DNA of 9,360 nucleotides. Origin: Armatimonadota bacterium. GTDB lineage: Bacteria > Armatimonadota > SYMT01. The stretch lies in assembly GCA_020696885.1 (NCBI GenBank), contig JAJFMS010000061.1, positions 1-9,360 on the forward strand, read 5' to 3'. This document shows, one piece after another, positions 2,074-9,360 of the stretch (position 1 is the first letter of the stretch; each line of letters opens with the position of its first letter). A program made the translations under genes and the position numbers. A model generated the notes under the pieces. It had not been told where the DNA came from. It was given only the letters and a program-made list of their open reading frames with translations, and made no database searches.

Positions 2074-3318
2074 ATGAAGGCTGTTGTATTCCACGGGATC
2101 GGGGACATCCGGCTGGACGAGGTCCGGGATCCAAAGCTGAAAGATCCCACGGACGCCATTGTCCGGCTCACCGCCAGCGCCATCTGCGGCACGGACCTGC
2201 ACATGGTGCGCGGCACCATGCCCGGCATGAAGCCCGGCACGATCCTCGGCCACGAGGGCGTCGGCATCGTCGAAGAGCTGGGCAAGGACGTGCGCAACCT
2301 GAAGGTGGGCGACCGGGTGGTGATCCCTTCCACTATCGCCTGCGGCGGCTGCTCCTACTGCCGTTCCGGCTACTACTCCCAGTGTGACGAAGCGAACCCC
2401 AAGGGTGCCCTCGCCGGCACGGCGTTCTTCGGCGGTCCCGAGCCGACCGGGCCGTTCGACGGTCTGCAGGCGGAGTATGCGCGGGTGCCGTTCGCGCACG
2501 TGGGGCTCGTCAAGCTGCCGCCGGAGGTGAGTGACGACCAGGCGATCCTGCTGTCGGACATCTTCCCCACCGGCTACTTCGGCGCGGAGATGGCGGAGAT
2601 CGAACCGGGTGATACCGTCGCGGTGTTCGGCTGCGGCCCGGTGGGCCTGTTCACCATCATGAGCGCGCAGCTGATGGGCGCCGGCCGGGTGCTGGCGGTG
2701 GACCACCATGCGGACCGCCTGGACAAGGCCCGCGAGTTGGGTGCCGAGGCGATCAACTTCGACCAGGACGATCCGGTGCAGACGATCCGCCGCCTGACGA
2801 ATGGGATCGGCGTGGACCGTGCTATCGACGCGGTGGGCGTGGACGCGGAGCGGGCCAAGCACGGCCCCGCGGCGGCGCTCTCCGCGCTGCAGAAGGAGCA
2901 GTTCAAAGAAGAACTCAGCGAGATCGCTCCGAAGACCAACCCGGATGGCGATAACTGGGTGCCCGGAGACGCGCCGTCCCAGGCGCTGCAGTGGGCGGTG
3001 CAAGCGCTGGCCAAGGCGGGGACGCTGTCCATCATCGGCGTCTACCCGCAGACGGACCGGTTCTTCCCGATCGGCATGGCGATGAACAAGAACCTGGCGA
3101 TCAACATGGGGAACTGCCACCACCGGAAGTACCTCCCGCACCTGGTGGAGCTAGTACGCACGGGAGCCGTGGATCCGGAGAAGATCCTCACCGAGCGCCA
3201 GCCGATGCTCGGCGCGATCGAAGCCTACGAGGCATTCGACCTGCGGCAGCCGGGCTGGATCAAGGTAGAGCTGCGGCCCGCCGTGGTGAACGCCCGGGAA
3301 CTGCGGGAAGCGGCGTAG
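2074..3318 (+). CDS. Zinc-dependent alcohol dehydrogenase, formaldehyde dehydrogenase-like MDR family
   Basis: This 414-residue cytosolic medium-chain dehydrogenase/reductase should oxidise an alcohol or aldehyde adduct with NAD. The GroES-like catalytic domain contains ICGTD with the catalytic-zinc ligand C38, GHE with H60/E61, and a probable third ligand at D162 (LLSDIFPTGYF). The structural-zinc lobe is complete: C90, C93, C96 and C104, spaced C-x2-C-x2-C-x7-C. The Rossmann motif GCGPVG is at 186-191, and an acidic D210 at the end of the next strand favours NAD over NADP. A long insertion (about 258-305, containing many Q, K and E residues) separates the Rossmann strands, and HHRKYLPHLVELV lies near the C-terminus. 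This length and insertion are characteristic of the glutathione-independent formaldehyde dehydrogenase-like subgroup rather than plain yeast-type ADH. The substrate is not determined. The gene is flanked by a large hairpin downstream and looks monocistronic. Confidence 0.92.
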   Translation: MKAVVFHGIGDIRLDEVRDPKLKDPTDAIVRLTASAICGTDLHMVRGTMPGMKPGTILGHEGVGIVEELGKDVRNLKVGDRVVIPSTIACGGCSYCRSGYYSQCDEANPKGALAGTAFFGGPEPTGPFDGLQAEYARVPFAHVGLVKLPPEVSDDQAILLSDIFPTGYFGAEMAEIEPGDTVAVFGCGPVGLFTIMSAQLMGAGRVLAVDHHADRLDKARELGAEAINFDQDDPVQTIRRLTNGIGVDRAIDAVGVDAERAKHGPAAALSALQKEQFKEELSEIAPKTNPDGDNWVPGDAPSQALQWAVQALAKAGTLSIIGVYPQTDRFFPIGMAMNKNLAINMGNCHHRKYLPHLVELVRTGAVDPEKILTERQPMLGAIEAYEAFDLRQPGWIKVELRPAVVNARELREAA

Positions 3319-3326
3319 TGGGATAG

Positions 3327-3387
3327 GGAGGTAGGGAGGTGAGGGGATGAGGGGTGGGTCTCCTCATCCCCTCACCTCCCTACCTCC
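3327..3387. terminator. Perfect 26-bp inverted repeat between convergent genes, probable two-way terminator
   Basis: Bases 3327-3352 are exactly complementary to 3362-3387, leaving a 9-nt loop at 3353-3361. The arm is made of iterated GGGAGG/GGTAGG/GGTGAGG-like units, so one strand is nearly all purine and the other nearly all pyrimidine plus T. It begins 9 bases after the stop of the + strand dehydrogenase, and the next gene in this direction is on the - strand, which fits transcription termination from both sides. No T-run follows on either strand, so the mechanism would be non-canonical. The pyrimidine units continue to about 3400 as partial repeats. Confidence 0.65.
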
Positions 3388-3572
3388 TCACCTACCTCCT
3401 GCGCCGCGTTCAGGTATCGTTGCAGAACGGTGCGCAGGCGAATCGTGCGGCGGGTTCGGTGCCCTTCCTCCAGCCGGCGGCCTCGCTCGCCTCGCCCGTG
3501 GCAACCGTGACGAGCTACGGATCCTGCGGGAAGCGCTCCACGTGCCCTTTCTGGAGTGAGTTTGGGAGTGCC
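3388..3572. other. Intergenic stretch with no recognisable gene
   Basis: After the hairpin there are about 185 bases before the end of the - strand VOC gene. Open frames cross it on both strands, but none has a convincing start, ribosome binding site or recognisable protein. The first bases continue the CCTACCTCC-type repeats of the hairpin. I see no RNA gene or promoter here. Confidence 0.5.
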
Positions 3573-3935
3573 TCAGGACGAGTGCAGGGCGATCCGGTTG
3601 CCTTCGCTGTCCAGCACCACCGCTCGCCAGCCGTACGCGCCGAGGGAGTGCTTCCCGTGCAGCACCCGGCCGCCATAGGCTTCCACCGCGGCCAGCGCGT
3701 CGTCCAGGCGGTCCTGGCAGTTCAGGTAGACCAGGGGGCCGTGCTCGGAAGGCCGCACGGTATCCGACGTGAAGAGGCAGCCGCTCACGTTCTCCCCGGC
3801 GTGCGGGAGCATCCCGATCGCCATGCCGGGGAACTCCTGCCTGGCAATCGGCGCCGCGAGCACCGCCGAGTAGAAGCTGATTGCCCGGTCCAGGTCCGTG
3901 ACCGGAATGTCCACCCATACCACCTGATTCGCCAT
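3573..3935 (-). CDS. VOC-superfamily (glyoxalase/bleomycin resistance fold) protein
   Basis: This 120-residue single-domain protein has paired beta-alpha-beta-beta-beta modules. The first module starts WVDIPVTDLDRAISFYSAVL, a typical VOC opening, followed by FPGMAIGMLPHAG. The second module contains GPLVYLNCQDRLDDALAAVEAYGGRVLHGKHSLG and ends with a DSEGNRIALHSS strand. The length is that of one VOC protomer, which normally dimerises to build the metal site. The frame is open upstream to 4076, but the ATG at 3935 is chosen because GGGAGAGG (3941-3948 on the complementary strand) sits 5 nt before it and because the VOC fold starts right there; the extension has no conserved look. The activity (isomerase, dioxygenase, thiol transferase or a binding role) cannot be predicted. 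It is divergent from the cassette that follows and convergent with the dehydrogenase, so it is probably its own unit. Confidence 0.85.
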   Translation of the reverse strand: MANQVVWVDIPVTDLDRAISFYSAVLAAPIARQEFPGMAIGMLPHAGENVSGCLFTSDTVRPSEHGPLVYLNCQDRLDDALAAVEAYGGRVLHGKHSLGAYGWRAVVLDSEGNRIALHSS

Positions 3936-4122
3936 CGTCGCCTCTCCCGTGTTCCACCGGCAACCGCTGGGCCGGCGGCGGAGCCAGTCATGCGCATTAT
4001 CGGGCGCACCGCCTCCCATCATGACGCCGATGAACGAGAAGCCCTTCGCCGGCAGCATGGTGAAGGTGACCGGCACTATCCAGGAAGAACGGGGCGGTAG
4101 CGCGCACTCGGGAGGACGTTTG
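3936..4122. promoter_or_regulatory. Divergent control region between the VOC gene and the STM4015-4011 operon
   Basis: These 187 bases separate two diverging transcription units, so they should hold promoters in both directions. I can see the two ribosome binding sites at its ends but no convincing -35/-10 pair, operator repeat or riboswitch. The assignment rests on position alone. Confidence 0.4.
4111..4115 (+). promoter_or_regulatory. Ribosome binding site that sets the STM4015-family start
   Basis: A perfect GGAGG lies 7 nt before the ATG at 4123. The frame is open back to 3949, but the extra 58 residues are low-complexity and overlap the divergent control region, so 4123 is preferred. 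Confidence 0.8.
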
Positions 4123-5061
4123 ATGGGGATCTACGAGTTCAATCAACAGTTTGCCGGCAAGCCGGTGATCAATTGGGATGCAAACCAGCCGCTGGCTGAT
4201 GCCGAGAACCATGTCTACCGCATCTCCATCGACTGGGACGACTCCGAGGCCGGCGAGAAGTGGACCGACCGCCTGGCGATGTTCCTGGACGACCCGGCTT
4301 CCGCCCAGGTGACCGGGCTGATCGTGGGCTTCTGGGGCGGCGAGCCCGGCGACGAGAGTGCGGCTCCGGTGGTGGAGGCCCTGGTGGCGGCGCGGGATCG
4401 CCTCCCGCTGCTCAACGGCCTCTTCCTCGGCGAGATCCTGGCCGAGGAGTGTGAGATCTCCTGGATCGCGCAGACCGACGTGTCGCCGCTGTTCGAGGCG
4501 TATCCAAAGCTGGAGTACTTCCGGGTGCGCGGCAGCACCGGGCTCCGCCTTGGGGCGATCCGCCACGCGCGCCTCAAGGAGCTGGCGATCGAGTGCGGCG
4601 GGCTCGGCCGCGACCTCCTGCACGATGTCTTCGCCTCGGAGCTGCCCGAGCTGGAGCACCTGGAGCTGTGGCTGGGCGCGGAAGGCTACGGAGCGGAGGC
4701 CACCGTGGACGACCTGGCGCCGCTGCTCTCGGGAGAGTTGTTCCCGAAGCTGACCTACCTCGGCCTGCGGGACAGCGAGATCACGGACGACATCGCCGGC
4801 GTGCTCGCGAATGCGCCGGTGCTGGAACGGCTGGAGGTGCTGGATCTCTCGCTCGGCACCTTCGGAAACGGCGGCGCGGCGGCGCTGCTGGCCAGCCCGC
4901 ACGCGCCAAAGCTGAAGAAGCTGGATATCCATCACCACTACTGCTCCGATGAGATGATCGAGCGGCTGCGCGGGCTGGGGATCGAGGTGGAGGCCAGCGA
5001 GCACCAGACCCCGGACGACTGGGGCGACGGGGAGCACCGCTTCGTTGCGGTCGGTGAGTGA
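4123..5061 (+). CDS. STM4015 family leucine-rich-repeat protein
   Basis: This is the first gene of the five-gene cassette: 312 residues, cytosolic, with no signal peptide or membrane segment. The N-terminal part (to about 140) contains VYRISIDWDD, VTGLIVGFWGG, PVVEALVAARDRLPLLNGLFLGEI and CEISWIAQTDVSPLFEAYPKL, which I recognise as family features. The C-terminal half has five leucine-rich repeats of 26 to 33 residues, starting near 151 (LKELAI), 177 (LEHLEL), 210 (LTYLGL), 237 (LEVLDL) and 264 (LKKLDIHHH). The protein is markedly acidic and ends in an aspartate/glutamate-rich tail closing with HRFVAVGE. LRR proteins usually bind proteins or peptides, so a scaffold, chaperone or substrate role is plausible; no catalytic motif is seen. 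It overlaps the next gene by 8 or 17 bases, implying coupled translation. The family match is from recognition of sequence and gene order; the function is unknown. Confidence 0.88.
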   Translation: MGIYEFNQQFAGKPVINWDANQPLADAENHVYRISIDWDDSEAGEKWTDRLAMFLDDPASAQVTGLIVGFWGGEPGDESAAPVVEALVAARDRLPLLNGLFLGEILAEECEISWIAQTDVSPLFEAYPKLEYFRVRGSTGLRLGAIRHARLKELAIECGGLGRDLLHDVFASELPELEHLELWLGAEGYGAEATVDDLAPLLSGELFPKLTYLGLRDSEITDDIAGVLANAPVLERLEVLDLSLGTFGNGGAAALLASPHAPKLKKLDIHHHYCSDEMIERLRGLGIEVEASEHQTPDDWGDGEHRFVAVGE

Positions 5062-6211
5062 CGCCGCCCACCGGCCTCGCTACGTGGTGCTGGGAAACCC
5101 GGGCTGTCGGCGGGTCGGCCTGTTTCAGGAAGCGCTGGTCCGCGCCGGCCTGGCGCCGGCCCTCCTCGTCTCCTGGCTCGACCTGCTTACCGGCCGGGAC
5201 GACCTCTCCGTGACCGTTCAGCCCGGTGACGTGGTACGGATCGAGTCGCCCGGCCGCGAGTTCGAGGTGGAGCGGGAATTGCTGGCCTGGGGTGCGGAGT
5301 CCGCGGACGAGGAAGAGTTCGATCGCCTATCCGCGCAGCGTCTCCAGGCGCTTACTTTCGAGCGGGGCCGGATCCTCGCCCCACGCCAGTGGTACCTTGG
5401 CTTCCGGCGAGCCCTGGCAAGGGTGAGCACGCAACTGGAGGCATGCGGCGACGTGACGACGATGAACGATCCCGCCGAGATTGCGATGATGTTCGACAAG
5501 CCTGCGTGTCACGCGCATCTCCGCGAGGCGGGGATCCCGGTGCCGGAGGCGCTCGGATCGGTACAGAGTTATGAGGAGTTGCTGGACTGGATGGAGCGCT
5601 GCCGCTGCCCGCGCGTATTCGTGAAGCTCGCCCACGGCTCCAGCGCTTCCGGGGTGGTGGCCTACCAGTTCCAGGGCGACCGGCACCAGGCCGCCACCAC
5701 CACCGAGCTGGTGCGGGAGGCCGGCGAGGTGCGGCTCTACAACTCGCGGCACATCCGTACGCTGCGTGATCCGCACGAGATCGGCACGCTCGTCGACGCG
5801 CTGGGCCGGCACCGGGTCCACGTGGAGCGGTGGCTGCCAAAGGCCGGGCTGGACGGGCAGTCGTTCGACCTCCGCCTCCTCACGATCGCCGGCGAGCCCG
5901 CGCACACCGTGGCCCGCCTCAGCCGCAGCCCGATGACGAACCTGCACCTCCTTAACGACCGCGCAAGTGTGGAGCGGGTGCGAGAGCAGGCGCCCGCCGT
6001 GGCCTGGGAAGCGGCGCTGGACACCTGTCGGCGCACTGCCGCGGCGTTTCCACGCAGCCTGCACGCCGGCATCGACCTGGCGTTCAGCCCGGACTTCCGC
6101 CGCCACGCCGTGCTGGAGGTCAACGCGTTCGGCGACCTCCTCCCCGGCACGCTCCACGCCGGACAGGATACCTACGGCGCCGAGCTCGCCGCATTGTCGA
6201 GGGCAGCATGA
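5045..6211 (+). CDS. STM4014 family ATP-grasp-like protein
   Basis: This 388-residue protein probably couples ATP hydrolysis to carboxylate-amine (or similar) bond formation. The N-terminal pre-grasp part starts RYVVLGNPGCRRVGLFQEAL with LLVSWLDLLTG. The grasp region follows: MNDPAEIAMMFDKPACHAHL and AGIPVPEAL (140-168), a probable ATP-binding lysine K194 with a small-residue loop HGSSASG, E261 in VHVERWL, D275/R277 in FDLRLLTIAGEPAHTVARLS, and the likely metal ligands E358/N360 in VLEVNAFGD. Homology to ATP-grasp is inferred from this order of motifs; the acceptor is unknown. Start choice: the TTG at 5045 lies 10 nt after GGGGAG (5029-5034), while the GTG at 5054 is a commoner start codon but 19 nt away; the three-residue difference does not affect the domain. 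It overlaps the STM4015-family gene upstream, and its TGA shares bases with the ATG of the next gene. Confidence 0.86.
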   Translation: MRSVSDAAHRPRYVVLGNPGCRRVGLFQEALVRAGLAPALLVSWLDLLTGRDDLSVTVQPGDVVRIESPGREFEVERELLAWGAESADEEEFDRLSAQRLQALTFERGRILAPRQWYLGFRRALARVSTQLEACGDVTTMNDPAEIAMMFDKPACHAHLREAGIPVPEALGSVQSYEELLDWMERCRCPRVFVKLAHGSSASGVVAYQFQGDRHQAATTTELVREAGEVRLYNSRHIRTLRDPHEIGTLVDALGRHRVHVERWLPKAGLDGQSFDLRLLTIAGEPAHTVARLSRSPMTNLHLLNDRASVERVREQAPAVAWEAALDTCRRTAAAFPRSLHAGIDLAFSPDFRRHAVLEVNAFGDLLPGTLHAGQDTYGAELAALSRAA

Positions 6212-7014
6212 TCGACGCGCGCAGCCTCGTCGGCACGCACGACGTACTGTTTCTCACCCTGGACACCCTGCGTTACGACGTCGCCCGGGACGCGCTGGCG
6301 GCCGGGACCACGCCGAACCTCGCCGCGCTCCTGCCCGGCGGCTGGGAAGAGCGGCACTCCCCGGCCACCTTCACCTACGCGGCACACCACGCCTTCTTCG
6401 CCGGGTTCCTGCCCACGCCTCCGGGACCGGGACCCCACCCGCGCCTCTTCGCGGCTCGCTTCGAGGGCAGCGAGAGCGTCACCGAGCAGACCTGCGTCTT
6501 CGACGCGCCGGACATCGTGTCCGGCTTCGCCTCCCGGGGCTACTACACGCTCTGCATCGGCGGGGTGGGGTTCTTCAACCTCCGCACCCCGCTCGGCCGG
6601 GTGCTGCCGGGCCTGTTCCAGGAGAGCCACTGGTCCGAAGAACTGGGCGTCACGGACCCCCGCTCCACCCAGAACCAGGTGCGGCTGGCCGTGGAGCGGT
6701 TGGGGCCGCTGCCGGCGGACCGGCGCGTTTTCCTGTTCCTGAACGTCTCCGCCATCCACCAGCCGAACCGCCTCTACGCCCCCGGCGCAGCGGAGGACGA
6801 CCTCCGCACCCACCGGCACGCGTTGGAGTACGTGGACCGCTGCCTGCCGCCGCTCTTCGAGGCGCTGCGCCGGCGGGCGCCCCTGCTGGCGATCCTCTGC
6901 TCGGACCACGGCACCGCCTATGGGGAGGACGGCTACCACGGCCACCGCGTGGCGCACCCGGTGGTGTGGACCGTCCCCTACGCGGAGTGCGTGCTGCCGG
7001 AGCTGCCCCGATGA
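6208..7014 (+). CDS. STM4013/SEN3800 family hydrolase (alkaline phosphatase/sulfatase fold)
   Basis: This is a 268-residue cytosolic member of the alkaline phosphatase superfamily, much shorter than typical sulfatases (about 450-550). The first metal-binding strand is VLFLTLDTLRYD (D19, D24). The active-site helix start HSPATFTYAAHHAFFAGFLP corresponds to the sulfatase C/S-x-P-S-R...TG region. Counting back from the glycine puts T56 at the nucleophile position, so no formylglycine can form, and a phosphate or phosphonate ester substrate or a transferase reaction is more likely than sulfate hydrolysis. FLNVSAIHQPNRLY holds the mid-domain histidine, and CSDHGTAYGEDGYHGHR (D233, H234, H244, H246) supplies the remaining metal ligands. 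Its ATG overlaps the stop of the ATP-grasp gene in an ATGA, and its own TGA overlaps the next ATG the same way. Family and fold are well supported; the substrate is unknown. Confidence 0.87.
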   Translation: MIDARSLVGTHDVLFLTLDTLRYDVARDALAAGTTPNLAALLPGGWEERHSPATFTYAAHHAFFAGFLPTPPGPGPHPRLFAARFEGSESVTEQTCVFDAPDIVSGFASRGYYTLCIGGVGFFNLRTPLGRVLPGLFQESHWSEELGVTDPRSTQNQVRLAVERLGPLPADRRVFLFLNVSAIHQPNRLYAPGAAEDDLRTHRHALEYVDRCLPPLFEALRRRAPLLAILCSDHGTAYGEDGYHGHRVAHPVVWTVPYAECVLPELPR

Positions 7015-8333
7015 GCCGCCTCGCCGAGCTGCTGCGGGGGGCGCCGTTCGCCGGCTACGCCTACTCCTACCCGCACAAGACCGCATATCGGCCGTTGGAT
7101 CCGCCGGTGCCGCTCGAGGAAGCGTGGGCCGGTGAAGACCGGAGCGCCGCGTTCCTGTACCTGCACGTGCCGTTCTGCGAGATGCGCTGCGGGTTCTGCA
7201 ACCTGTTCACCACCGCGAACCCGGCCGCCGACGTGGAGCAGCGGTATCTCGCCGCGCTCCGCCGCCAGGCCCTGCGCGTGCGGGAAGCGATCGGCCCGCT
7301 CCGCGTGGGCCGGATGGCGATCGGCGGCGGCACCCCCACCTACCTCGCACCGGATGATCTCGCCGCGCTCCTCGCCCTGGCGCGGGAGCTGTTCGGCGCG
7401 GATGCCCAGCAGGTGTCCGCCTCCGTGGAGACCTCCCCGCTCACCGCCACGCCGGAGCGGCTGCAGGTGCTGCATGACCACGGCGTGGAGCGGATCAGCA
7501 TCGGCGTCCAGAGCTTCCGGGACGAGGAAGCCGCCGCCGCGGGCCGGCCGCAGAAGCGCGCCGCCGTCGAAGCCGCCCTCGGCCGGATCCGCGCCGTGGG
7601 GTTCCCGCGGCTGAACCTGGACCTGATGTACGGTCTCCCCGGGCAGACGGTGGAGACCTGGAGGGAGTCGCTGCACGCCGCCCTGGAGTACCAGCCCGAG
7701 GAGCTCTACCTCTACCCGTTGTACGTCCGCCCGCTCACCGGCCTGGACCGCCGGGGCGCGCAGAGCTGGGACGAACTCCGCCTCGCCTGCTATCGCGTGG
7801 GCCGGGACCTGCTCCGGGAGCACGGCTACACGCAGCTCTCCATGCGGCACTTCGGTCGCCGCTTCGCCCGGGCCGCGGCCATGCCGGAGTACCGGTGCCA
7901 GGAAGACGCCATGCTTGGACTGGGCTGCGGTGCGCGCTCCTACACCCGCACCCTGCACTATTCCAGTGAGTACGCCGTGGGCCGGGCAGGGGTGCGGGAG
8001 ATCCTGGCCGAATACCTGGAGCAACCGGAGGAGGCGTTCGGTCTGGCCGGGTACGGGTTTGCCCTCGACACGGAGGAGCAGCGCCGGCGGTTCGCGATCA
8101 AGTCACTGCTGCACGCGGAGGGGCTCTCGCTCGCTGACTACCGTGAGCGGTTCGGCACCGACGCGTTAGCCGACCTGCCGGAGCTTTCGGAGCTGCTCCC
8201 GCACCGCCTCGCCGAAGGAAAGGACGACCGCCTGGTGCTCACGACTTCCGGCATGGAGTACTCCGACGTCATCGGCCCGTGGCTCTACTCGCCCCTGGTG
8301 CGCGAGCGCTCCGAGCAGTTCGACCTTCGCTGA
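7011..8333 (+). CDS. STM4012 family radical SAM protein (HemW-like)
   Basis: This is a 440-residue radical S-adenosylmethionine enzyme. C56-x3-C60-x2-C63 (CEMRCGFC) should bind the [4Fe-4S] cluster, preceded by FLYLHVPF as in HemN/HemW proteins. Further radical SAM landmarks are GGGTPTYL (from 105), VETSPLTATPERL, RISIGVQSF and LNLDLMYGLPGQT. After the barrel, CQEDAMLGLGCGARSYT resembles the HemW LGLGAGAHS region, and the end (FAIKSLLHAEGLSL...) resembles the HemN C-terminal winged-helix domain. The organisation is that of coproporphyrinogen dehydrogenase-like proteins, but the cassette context argues against a heme role. The open frame extends far upstream through the preceding gene, but the ATG at 7011, overlapping the upstream TGA in an ATGA, is the natural start. 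The next gene begins 5 nt after its stop. Confidence 0.92.
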   Translation: MSRLAELLRGAPFAGYAYSYPHKTAYRPLDPPVPLEEAWAGEDRSAAFLYLHVPFCEMRCGFCNLFTTANPAADVEQRYLAALRRQALRVREAIGPLRVGRMAIGGGTPTYLAPDDLAALLALARELFGADAQQVSASVETSPLTATPERLQVLHDHGVERISIGVQSFRDEEAAAAGRPQKRAAVEAALGRIRAVGFPRLNLDLMYGLPGQTVETWRESLHAALEYQPEELYLYPLYVRPLTGLDRRGAQSWDELRLACYRVGRDLLREHGYTQLSMRHFGRRFARAAAMPEYRCQEDAMLGLGCGARSYTRTLHYSSEYAVGRAGVREILAEYLEQPEEAFGLAGYGFALDTEEQRRRFAIKSLLHAEGLSLADYRERFGTDALADLPELSELLPHRLAEGKDDRLVLTTSGMEYSDVIGPWLYSPLVRERSEQFDLR

Positions 8334-8338
8334 GGCCC

Positions 8339-9193
8339 ATGAGACTCACGCTGCTCTACCGGGGACCGCTGGCAAGCTGCAACTACGCCTGCCCCTACTG
8401 CCCGTTCGCCAAGCGCCGCGAGAGCGACGCGGAGCATGAGGTCGACCGCGCGGCGCTGGAGCGGTTCGTCACCTGGGTCGAGCAGCGGGAACAGGATCGC
8501 TTGTCGATGTTTTTCACACCCTGGGGCGAAGCACTCATACGAAGCCGGTATCAGCAGGCTCTGGTCCGGCTGACGAACCTTCCACACGTGGAGAAGGTGG
8601 CCATCCAGACCAACCTCTCCTGCCGTCTGGACTGGGTGGAGCGGTGCGACAAGAGCCGGCTCGGGCTCTGGGCCACCTACCATCCCGGAGAGGTGACCCG
8701 AGTACGGTTCCTGAAGCAGTGCTGGGAGCTGGCGGCGCGTGAGGTCCGGTTCAGCGTGGGCGTGGTGGGGCTGAAGGAGCACGCGGCGGAGATCGAGGCG
8801 CTCCGCAACGAGCTGCCGCCGCACGTGTACCTCTGGATCAACGCCTACAAGCGGGTGCCGGACTACTACACCGAAGCAGAATTGCAGGCGTTCGAGGCGG
8901 TGGATCCGCTCTTCCCGCTCAACAACCAGCGCCACCCCAGCCAGGGCCGCGCCTGCCGCACCGGCGCCTCCGTACTCTCGGTGGACGGGGACGGCACCCT
9001 GCGCCGCTGCCACTTCGTTCGCGAGCCGCTCGGAAACCTCTACGAGCCCGGTTGGGAGAGCGTGCTCCAGGAACGCCCGTGTGTGAACGACACGTGCGGA
9101 TGTCACATCGGTTACGTGCACCTGGACCACCTGGGGCTGTACGACACCTTCCGGGGAGGGATTCTGGAGCGGATCCCGGCGCGAGGCCCGTAG
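8339..9193 (+). CDS. STM4011 family radical SAM protein
   Basis: This 284-residue second radical SAM enzyme is the last cassette gene. The cluster motif is C14-x3-C18-x2-C21 (CNYACPYC) right at the N-terminus, followed by FFTPWGEAL (in the place of the usual GGEP), VEKVAIQTNLSCRL, LWATYHPGEV and RFSVGVVGLK, which fit a short TIM-barrel core. The C-terminus carries additional cysteines: C206, C224 (the spacing C-x17-C around VDGDGTLRRC), C248, C253 and C255. This resembles a SPASM/twitch auxiliary-cluster region, as found in peptide-modifying radical SAM enzymes, though cluster number is not provable here. The ATG at 8339 is chosen because it gives the correct N-terminus and follows the upstream stop by 5 nt; GAGG at 8332-8335 is a close-spaced ribosome binding site. 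The frame is open back to 8279 but that would overlap the previous gene. Confidence 0.9.
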   Translation: MRLTLLYRGPLASCNYACPYCPFAKRRESDAEHEVDRAALERFVTWVEQREQDRLSMFFTPWGEALIRSRYQQALVRLTNLPHVEKVAIQTNLSCRLDWVERCDKSRLGLWATYHPGEVTRVRFLKQCWELAAREVRFSVGVVGLKEHAAEIEALRNELPPHVYLWINAYKRVPDYYTEAELQAFEAVDPLFPLNNQRHPSQGRACRTGASVLSVDGDGTLRRCHFVREPLGNLYEPGWESVLQERPCVNDTCGCHIGYVHLDHLGLYDTFRGGILERIPARGP

Positions 9194-9217
9194 AAGAACC
9201 TTCATCGCGAGAGACGC

Positions 9218-9263
9218 CGTTTGCCCCGTGGTGATCCCGATCGACCACGGAGCCGGCCAAACG
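9218..9263 (+). terminator. Imperfect hairpin after the cassette, possible terminator
   Basis: CCGTGGT at 9226-9232 pairs with ACCACGG at 9244-9250, and an outer stem CGTTTG (9218-9223) pairs with CAAACG (9258-9263), with bulged bases between. It begins 24 bases after the last cassette stop. No T-run follows, so terminator function is only suggested by position. The remaining bases to 9360 show no recognisable gene. Confidence 0.35.
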
Positions 9264-9360
9264 CCGACGCACGCAGGCGGGTCACTGCTCAACCTTCGGG
9301 ATTGCCACAGCGCCGCGGAGGAGGTCGCCCGCATCCCGGAAATCGACGCCGGATGAAGGC

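Follow-up and report, generated by a model that had tools for sequence, protein, structure and literature searches.

Five adjacent genes at positions 4123–9193 of contig JAJFMS010000061.1 from an Armatimonadota bacterium (GCA_020696885.1; the window, meaning the whole stretch analysed, is the first 9,360 nt of this contig) behave as one system across bacteria, and we propose, with a probability of roughly one half, that this cassette modifies the C-terminal tail of one of its own products. In this reading, which comes from comparing sequences, the ATP-grasp enzyme STM4014 would ligate a building block to the terminal Glu of the leucine-rich-repeat (LRR) protein STM4015, and the radical S-adenosylmethionine (SAM) enzymes STM4012 and STM4011, together with the hydrolase STM4013, would tailor it. 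What is new relative to the NCBIfam STM40xx families is a conserved STM4015 tail that follows an acidic linker and ends in a near-invariant Glu, an accessory gene pair, and the replacement of STM4015 by other WGR/LRR proteins.

All five window genes run in the same direction in the order 4015-4014-4013-4012-4011, with the coordinates given in an earlier note on this DNA, and each product is above the cut-off of its family model. These are the STM4015 family protein, an acidic LRR protein of 312 residues (4123–5061, + strand; NF038076, 347 bits vs a cut-off of 275); the STM4014 family ATP-grasp ligase, 375 residues (5084–6211, +; NF038074, 415 vs 175 bits); the STM4013/SEN3800 family hydrolase of the alkaline-phosphatase/sulfatase superfamily, 268 residues (6208–7014, +; NF038075, 409 vs 250); the STM4012 family radical SAM protein, 440 residues and HemN/class C methylase-like (7011–8333, +; NF006067, 593 vs 380); and the STM4011 family radical SAM protein, 284 residues (8339–9193, +; NF038073, 416 vs 200 bits). 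These models, whose names are function-less (NF038073–NF038076 and NF006067, of the kinds hypoth_equivalog, subfamily and equivalog), are by far the best NCBIfam matches for all five proteins, the runners-up being HemW for STM4012 (153 bits) and the RimK family for STM4014 (31 bits), and a better match to unrelated families was not found. STM4014 has alternative GTG starts at 5054 (385 residues, 8-nt overlap with STM4015) and 5084 (375 residues, 22 nt downstream), of which the second agrees with a database copy (P0121, 375 residues). The STM4014/STM4013 and STM4013/STM4012 junctions each overlap by 4 nt, and 5 nt separate STM4012 from STM4011.

A single scan with a STM4014 alignment yielded at least 80 loci (numbered with L; genomes with G), which are the basis of the locus-level counts. 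The complete five-gene set is present in 64/80 loci, 56 of these in strict order, and 4015 lies directly upstream of 4014 in 72/79. Among the remaining complete loci, three are split into divergent operons (L015, L019, L063), with 4015-4014 one way, 4013-4012-4011 the opposite way and DUF6745 genes in the same region; three have an extra 4015 before 4011 (L012, L017, L024); and two (L011, L027) are out of order by the gene-midpoint rule alone. Eight of the 16 incomplete loci were checked genome-wide for 4012, which was above the cut-off in five (for L056 in the locus itself) and was not found above it in G003, G005 and G006.

Because an actinobacterial phylum-wide sample was sparse (3/110 over the cut-off), sampling was shifted to order and class level. 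Gene-by-gene searches covered all five genes in 81 genomes from the order that includes G008, a Streptosporangium (Streptosporangiales below), and 4014 and 4012 in 98 genomes from the class that includes G004 (Planctomycetia), both sets being uncorrected for genome kinship. In Streptosporangiales, 4014, 4015, 4012 and 4011 occur in the same 43/81 genomes and 4013 is over the cut-off in those 43 plus G177, so that 43 genomes have all five, one has 4013 alone and 37 have none over the cut-off; the 4011 of G179, truncated by a contig end and below the cut-off, is counted within the 43. In Planctomycetia, 4014 and 4012 are over the cut-off in an identical 15/98 genomes. This strict co-occurrence and conserved order agree with the earlier suggestion of one pathway, and the genes are not commonly separate, with just one lone 4013 among 81 genomes. 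That solitary 4013 (L105 of G177) is itself above the cut-off, the other four genes being missing from the genome, and weaker 4013-like matches occur in four Streptosporangiales genomes without other cassette genes. A decayed cassette with clustered 4014, 4015 and 4011 fragments was seen in G205 (L119).

The proposed ligation site lies at the end of STM4015. In the window protein, alignment of relatives delimits a variable acidic linker (residues 291–305; 4993–5037, +), followed by the conserved tail RFVAVGE (residues 306–312; 5038–5058, +), whose last residue is the candidate acceptor. The tail consensus among the window's relatives is R-[YF]-V-A-V-[GS]-E, with R306 and E312 invariant in 26 sequences and kept at 94% and 97%, respectively, in 105 more diverse ones (a set that excludes 4015 matches under 120 bits). 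The database search gave 3,470 matches, of which 120 were listed; of these, 117 have Arg at −7, 119 have Tyr or Phe at −6, 118 have Val at −3 and all 120 have the terminal Glu, and the tail pattern fits 119. By comparison, 7.0% of 2,516 mechanical six-frame open reading frames (ORFs) of at least 200 residues end in Glu, a background in which shadow ORFs and the 4015 genes are also counted. The strict pattern is carried by 107/117 of the 4015 matches of the 80 loci, the same matches from which it was derived, and one more pattern-bearing ORF among 9,025 ORFs of at least 70 residues is the true 4015 of L035. Five of the ten misfits still end in Glu and have one pattern position changed (L038, L065 and the second matches of L008, L012 and L080), and three look like overlapping wrong-frame ORFs (first matches of L004, L035 and L045). 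The linker is enriched in acidic residues (36% Asp plus Glu in the 20 residues before the tail vs 17% over the whole protein; 120 relatives), and the protein as a whole is strongly acidic, with a net charge of −33 in the window and −8.8 per 100 residues in the 105 sequences. No Cys is conserved at 90% or more in these 105 sequences, and no tail column of the 120 listed relatives has an invariant Ser, Thr or Lys. The window protein has 312 residues and relatives have about 300–500. The earlier description of an acidic LRR protein within the cassette stands, and we refine it to a substrate or carrier, which is more likely than a part of an enzyme. In cyanobacteria (L012, L014, L017), an N-terminal segment like QPREFDAVLGG..PPP..VLGG[IL]EGV is found not only in 4015-like proteins but also in a WD40 protein and a further ORF next to the cassette (examples are L012:13437-13733, L012:7745-8965 and L017:11284-12024).

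STM4015 also multiplies while its putative enzymes do not. At least two 4015 matches are present in 33 of the 43 cassette-positive Streptosporangiales genomes (mean at least 2.7, some matches being fragments), and 4014, 4012 and 4011 are single-copy in those 43. Across 39 pairs of tandem copies from 18 loci, identity is 57.3% in the body vs 73.6% in the last seven residues, with the tail the more similar part in 35/39 pairs. Copies far from the cassette, on a different contig or at a distance of hundreds of kb, were collected from 16 selected regions; 17/21 have the strict pattern and 20/21 the terminal Glu, the exception being a pseudogene (L103).

The terminal Glu persists where STM4015 itself is replaced. 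In 6 of the 15 Planctomycetia with 4014 and 4012 (G200, G216, G219, G223, G247, G283), searches with the 4015 model gave no match at E ≤ 1e-20, and 4014 is adjoined by proteins whose LRR part is distantly related to 4015 (in G219 with one ORF between). Two of these replacement proteins were scanned and reach 67.8 and 47.5 bits with NF038076, under the cut-off of 275; their domains are WGR, TIGR02996 and LRR (L106) and TIGR02996 and LRR (L111:8893), and the others look similar by eye. All eight proteins of the six genomes end in Glu, in tails of the form GD[YIWP]E (..GDYE, GDIE, GDWE, GDPE), as does a ninth GDxE-type protein from G004 (L113:36-2081). Tails in G254 and G260 end in ..HAE, the Salmonella tail in ..YMNAMYTE and a Bacteroides version, WGR-LRR by eye, in ..YYPMITE. 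The terminal Glu is therefore the feature common to all tail types seen (RYVAVSE, GDYE, HAE, MYTE, ITE), and as no tail class has a conserved Lys, the group on offer in the tail would be a carboxylate, not an amine. A model in which the −6 aromatic residue is itself modified was considered and set back, since this residue is missing in 6/9 GDxE tails, both HAE tails and Salmonella (it is present in L107, L108, L113 and Bacteroides).

STM4014 has the features expected of a ligase. Its ATP-grasp residues K149, K191, D341, E355 and N357 (numbered from the 5054 start) are kept in 100% of 80 STM4014 sequences, and 70 members match the NCBIfam models for the RimK family (45), MptN (35), LysX (13) and CofF (4), enzymes that join amino acids to carboxylates. 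The single sequence had no match among solved structures, an alignment profile had only a weak match to cyanophycin synthetase (0.017), and comparison of the 4014 and 4013 profiles showed no relation. On the STM4014 tree, ligases beside GDxE tails form one clade (Shimodaira–Hasegawa-like approximate likelihood ratio test (SH-aLRT) 99) and those beside HAE tails another (99). The segment from the E-x-N motif onward (ExNAFGDLLPG... in the window; 6116–6163, +) varies by tail class and is a candidate tail-reading loop: it reads FFP[GN]W.D..GRS in 6/7 GDxE-tail ligases (the seventh, L108, missed the search pattern), and in canonical-tail ligases mostly LLP, LLR or YHR followed by G-x-DTY (the comparison as a whole covers 26 of 31 loci). 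In G004, where genome-wide counts cover 4014, 4012 and 4015, there are two 4014 genes, each beside its own tail type, and a single strong 4012 match (E ≤ 1e-100). The GDxE class would need 3, 2 and 3 changes on the 4012, 4013 and 4011 trees, respectively. There is moderate evidence that STM4014 reads the tail. For the trees, two of every three actinobacterial rows were dropped, as was L115, which duplicates the L005 region; L081, L082, L084, L085 and L114 were excluded from the change counts and topology tests for 4012, 4013 and 4011; and L010, L018 and L034, with no 4015 in the locus, were canonical by default on the 4014 tree and unlabelled in the change counts.

The other three enzymes could supply tailoring chemistry. 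Among solved structures, STM4012 matches HemN (1olt, 7.5e-29) and NocN (9p2u, 7.6e-20), and its C56xxxC60xxC63 motif and Y50 are kept at 99% of 70 sequences. In the available part of PMC12871812, NocN is a class C methylase that binds two SAM molecules, and the Tyr that stacks on the second of these (SAM-II) is Tyr56 in HemN and Tyr34 in NocN. This Tyr aligns with Y50 of STM4012, and NocN R153 and D196 correspond to R161 and D204, both at 100% of 70; NocN S225 and R230 both align with Tyr. In STM4011, the radical SAM cysteines C14xxxC18xxC21 are kept at 98% of 65 sequences and five extra cysteines (206, 224, 248, 253, 255) at 100%, which makes an auxiliary iron-sulfur cluster likely. The earlier label "SPASM-like" would rest on these extra cysteines; no SPASM match was found for the window protein with domain models including NCBIfam. 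Short partial structure matches of STM4011 (7on7_A, 4jiv_D) were chance-like and were dropped. The STM4013 single sequence had no match among solved structures; a profile of 41 sequences found an arylsulfatase (1.2e-6) and NPP (1.5e-5), and the putative active-site residues D19, T56, H60, H184, D233, H234 and H246 are kept in 100% of 72 sequences. In some lineages a HAD phosphatase is added to the cassette: its gene separates 4014 from 4013 in Bacteroidota, Burkholderiales and some Planctomycetes (9/80 loci; one scanned), and a Cof-type HAD gene overlaps 4011 in Salmonella. The presence of two activities of phosphatase type points to a building block that may be phosphorylated. A 4011 fused to a Cof-type HAD phosphatase was observed in Bacteroides finegoldii (L121:8316-9881), in a record where 4013 and 4012 are mere fragments.

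Taken as a pathway, the cassette would work as follows. STM4015 would serve as substrate or carrier, its LRR body being joined by the acidic linker to the short tail with its near-invariant Glu. STM4014 would activate a carboxylate of this Glu as an acyl phosphate and couple it to the amine group of a building block that may carry a phosphate. While the LRR protein holds this unit, STM4012, a HemN-like enzyme for which C1 transfer with two SAM molecules is probable, would rebuild it, as would STM4011 with its extra iron-sulfur ligands. STM4013, aided in some lineages by the HAD phosphatase, would strip a phosphate- or sulfate-type group. The end product would be a modified protein with a fixed terminal group; this appears likelier than a released metabolite because several diverged 4015 proteins exist per enzyme set and no recurrent peptidase was seen beside the cassette. 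The gene content, linkage, co-occurrence, tail and active-site conservation, copy-number asymmetry and co-segregation of ligase and tail are observations; the building block, each chemical step and the retention of the unit are what we infer from them. The gene set is, as had been proposed from the window alone, of a maturation type.

Several observations weigh against this reading. Copy 3 of L007 and copy 1 of L021 have no terminal Glu (both are in tandem arrays with tail-bearing copies), and a weak LRR match (38 bits) after the second 4014 of G004 ends in Leu. The likeness of the window STM4014 to amino acid ligases is weak and local, at 31 bits for RimK (cut-off 143.4) and 15.7 bits for LysX (TIGR02144, cut-off 275.6). 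Moreover, Pfam places 39/70 members nearer ATPgrasp_ST, which is sugar-transfer associated, 25 nearer YheCD, 5 nearer RimK and 3 nearer ATP-grasp_3, so that the NCBIfam and Pfam kin of STM4014 disagree. Approximately unbiased (AU) tests do not clearly reject a single GDxE clade on the trees of the other enzymes (p 0.047 for 4012, 0.488 for 4013 and 0.229 for 4011), and the view that the ligase alone tracks the tail therefore leans on G004. By change counts, tail class appears to go with the ligase and not with the two radical SAM enzymes, but the AU tests do not firmly back this, and we hold it weakly. In addition, both the LysW and the pearlin route depend on a release step, and a peptidase for it was not recognised here. 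Finally, the terminal Glu could equally be a docking signal.

Of the alternatives, the best placed, though improbable in our estimate, is that STM4015 is a releasable carrier, as in the LysW and pearlin systems: the unit would be built on the terminal Glu and freed as a small molecule, and STM4015 regenerated. The logic of a C-terminal Glu is that of amino-group carrier proteins, and building at a C-terminus that of the pearlins (parts of PMC9303977 and PMC10433800); the marked acidity of STM4015 fits a carrier as well, and an ABC-transporter ATPase-like cluster, generic-looking, is found in 17/80 loci (five groups, median distance 4.3 kb). However, no peptidase was recognised by eye among the best 32 neighbour clusters of the 80 loci, and a pure carrier does not readily account for the several diverged 4015 bodies of a genome. 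(Neighbours were clustered with the core genes masked, the unmasked version being swamped by antisense shadow ORFs.) We also regard as improbable, and rank second, that the tail is a docking signal only and STM4015 a scaffold or regulator that gathers enzymes making an unattached small molecule. Protein binding is common for LRR proteins, the tail is short and conserved up to its terminus, and of the partners of the strongly acidic STM4015 just 4014 and 4011 are close to neutral; against this, a terminal Glu common to all tail types is more in keeping with a reactive terminus than with a docking motif, and 4015 multiplies whereas 4014, 4012 and 4011 do not. That the tail is instead a core peptide, as in ribosomally synthesized and post-translationally modified peptides, with side chains modified by the radical SAM enzymes before it is cut off, would match the two radical SAM enzymes plus an ATP-grasp enzyme, the tandem 4015 copies and the conserved C-terminal segment, but is quite improbable given bodies of about 300–500 residues rather than short precursors, the lack of a recognised peptidase among those 32 clusters, the lack of the −6 aromatic residue in most GDxE tails, both HAE tails and Salmonella, and a tail too invariant for a diversified core.

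Comparison with characterised systems helps to place the tail modification that we favour. LysX joins alpha-aminoadipate to the gamma-carboxyl of the C-terminal Glu of LysW (PMC10433800, in part), and LysX-type enzymes read their acidic carriers via positive patches (PMC9303977, in part). Like LysW/LysX and ArgW/ArgX, the cassette has a C-terminal Glu on an acidic protein, an ATP-grasp partner next door and ligase variants matched to the tail. Unlike them, its tails (RYVAVSE, GDYE, etc.) do not contain EDWGE; LysW carriers have about 54 residues and three or four Zn-binding cysteines, whereas STM4015 has an LRR body of about 300 residues without conserved Zn cysteines. The cassette also has radical SAM tailoring in place of reduction and transamination, no recognised peptidase and no score at the level of LysX. 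Pearlins (PEARL; TglA/TmoA) likewise combine chemistry on a unit appended to the C-terminus of a carrier with radical SAM tailoring (PMC9303977, in part), but they use a tRNA-dependent PEARL, a carrier peptide and protease release, while the cassette has an ATP-grasp enzyme and no PEARL. It therefore belongs neither to the LysW/LysX nor to the pearlin systems. RimK is an ATP-grasp enzyme that ligates at the C-terminus of ribosomal protein S6. The ligation proposed here is of the same kind, and the RimK family model is matched by the 45 of 70 STM4014 members mentioned above; unlike RimK, the cassette has a dedicated multi-copy substrate and two radical SAM enzymes, and its window ligase is far below the RimK cut-off. 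STM4012 is homologous to the HemN/NocN class C methylases and keeps the SAM-II-stacking Tyr and the CxxxCxxC motif; unlike them, it forms its own equivalog family with Tyr at the NocN S225 and R230 positions. With graspetides, the cassette has in common an ATP-grasp enzyme and an acidic residue of a ribosomal substrate; unlike in graspetides, the STM4015 tail has no conserved Ser, Thr or Lys partner, and the available part of a graspetide survey (PMC8939145) has no mention of STM4014, LRR or leucine.

In other lineages the cassette is joined by an accessory pair, a DUF6745 cluster and a protein of about 98 residues, which occur near it in the same 35/80 loci, mostly on the opposite strand; in Methylobacterium, the two genes precede 4015 in a seven-gene run. 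PF20530 was found in three scanned DUF6745 members, and the smaller protein has no Pfam or NCBIfam family (two scanned). The latter family (e.g. L049:13994-14305, L124:11083-11379 on the − strand and L122:3655-3951) has at least 7,792 database matches at E ≤ 0.001 and conserved GD, GExTGHxH, HxEH and QREYxP motifs and a C-terminal Asp. DUF6745 proteins above 300 bits and the ~98-residue protein occur in the same 20/81 Streptosporangiales genomes, all among the cassette-positive ones (20/43 vs 0/38 others), and weaker DUF6745 members are present regardless of the cassette. The pair was not seen in the last 167 nt of the window. Upstream of the cassette, the window has the end portion of a 3-keto-disaccharide hydrolase gene (2–622), a PD40 beta-propeller protein gene (641–1972), a Zn alcohol/formaldehyde dehydrogenase-like gene (2074–3318) and a glyoxalase-like gene (3573–4076, −). 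The Zn-dependent dehydrogenase resembles glutathione-independent formaldehyde dehydrogenase (TIGR02819, 189 bits, under the cut-off of 637). There were no Rfam matches across the window, and promoter and terminator scans of 3300–9360 were no richer than shuffles (0 vs 0.3 and 2 vs 1.9).

The earlier note also expected a widespread module, and named records and taxonomy place the cassette in about a dozen phyla: Chloroflexota, Thermomicrobiota, Armatimonadota, Planctomycetota, Cyanobacteriota, Melainabacteria, Acidobacteriota, Actinomycetota, Deinococcota, Bacteroidota, Myxococcota, Pseudomonadota and Bacillota (on a plasmid). On the 4014 tree, which has no enterobacterial rows, the window protein belongs to a set of six rows that also includes Chloroflexota, Thermomicrobiota and Acidobacteriota loci (SH-aLRT 95), and Bacteroidota and Burkholderiales fall together with Pirellulaceae and Schlesneria (SH-aLRT 94). 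This mixed-phylum grouping, together with 4014 on 13 of 72,556 records filed as plasmids (4011 is on the same 13, plus one generic match), speaks in part for the horizontal spread that had been suggested, but the plasmid part of the argument is reduced by records that look chromosomal, such as an 11.9-Mb Nonomuraea record and a Salmonella record with typA and glnA. The latter, a Salmonella Infantis record labelled as a plasmid (L120), has typA and glnA beside the cassette in a chromosomal-looking block and keeps the same gene order as the window. Partial STM4014 matches were also seen in three Salmonella/Escherichia records filed as phage (H28–H30), one of 156 kb, and are possibly host DNA.

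The cassette is thus widespread, including in soil actinomycetes, cyanobacteria and Salmonella, and the STM4014 search found at least 3,375 database proteins at E ≤ 0.001 (these may include some other ATP-grasp enzymes), yet it is hardly mentioned in the open-licence literature that we searched (subscription journals were outside the scope). Two papers of this literature, which comprises 5.39 million, contain an STM4011–STM4015 tag, each a single time and as a table entry: a row of a sigma-54 binding-site table (PMC3844500) and a row of a selection table (PMC2784778). Consistent with the earlier note, no established product or pathway was found in this literature. More tentatively, and with less confidence than in the modification itself, LRR proteins with LRR or WGR-LRR bodies may, across about a dozen phyla, carry a radical-SAM-built prosthetic group ligated to the C-terminal Glu by a dedicated ATP-grasp enzyme, and would then be diverged receptors or adaptors that share one chemical tip. 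If the proposed modification is correct, the cassette would represent a further logic of C-terminal assembly beside LysW carriers and pearlins, as well as a new protein-bound group.

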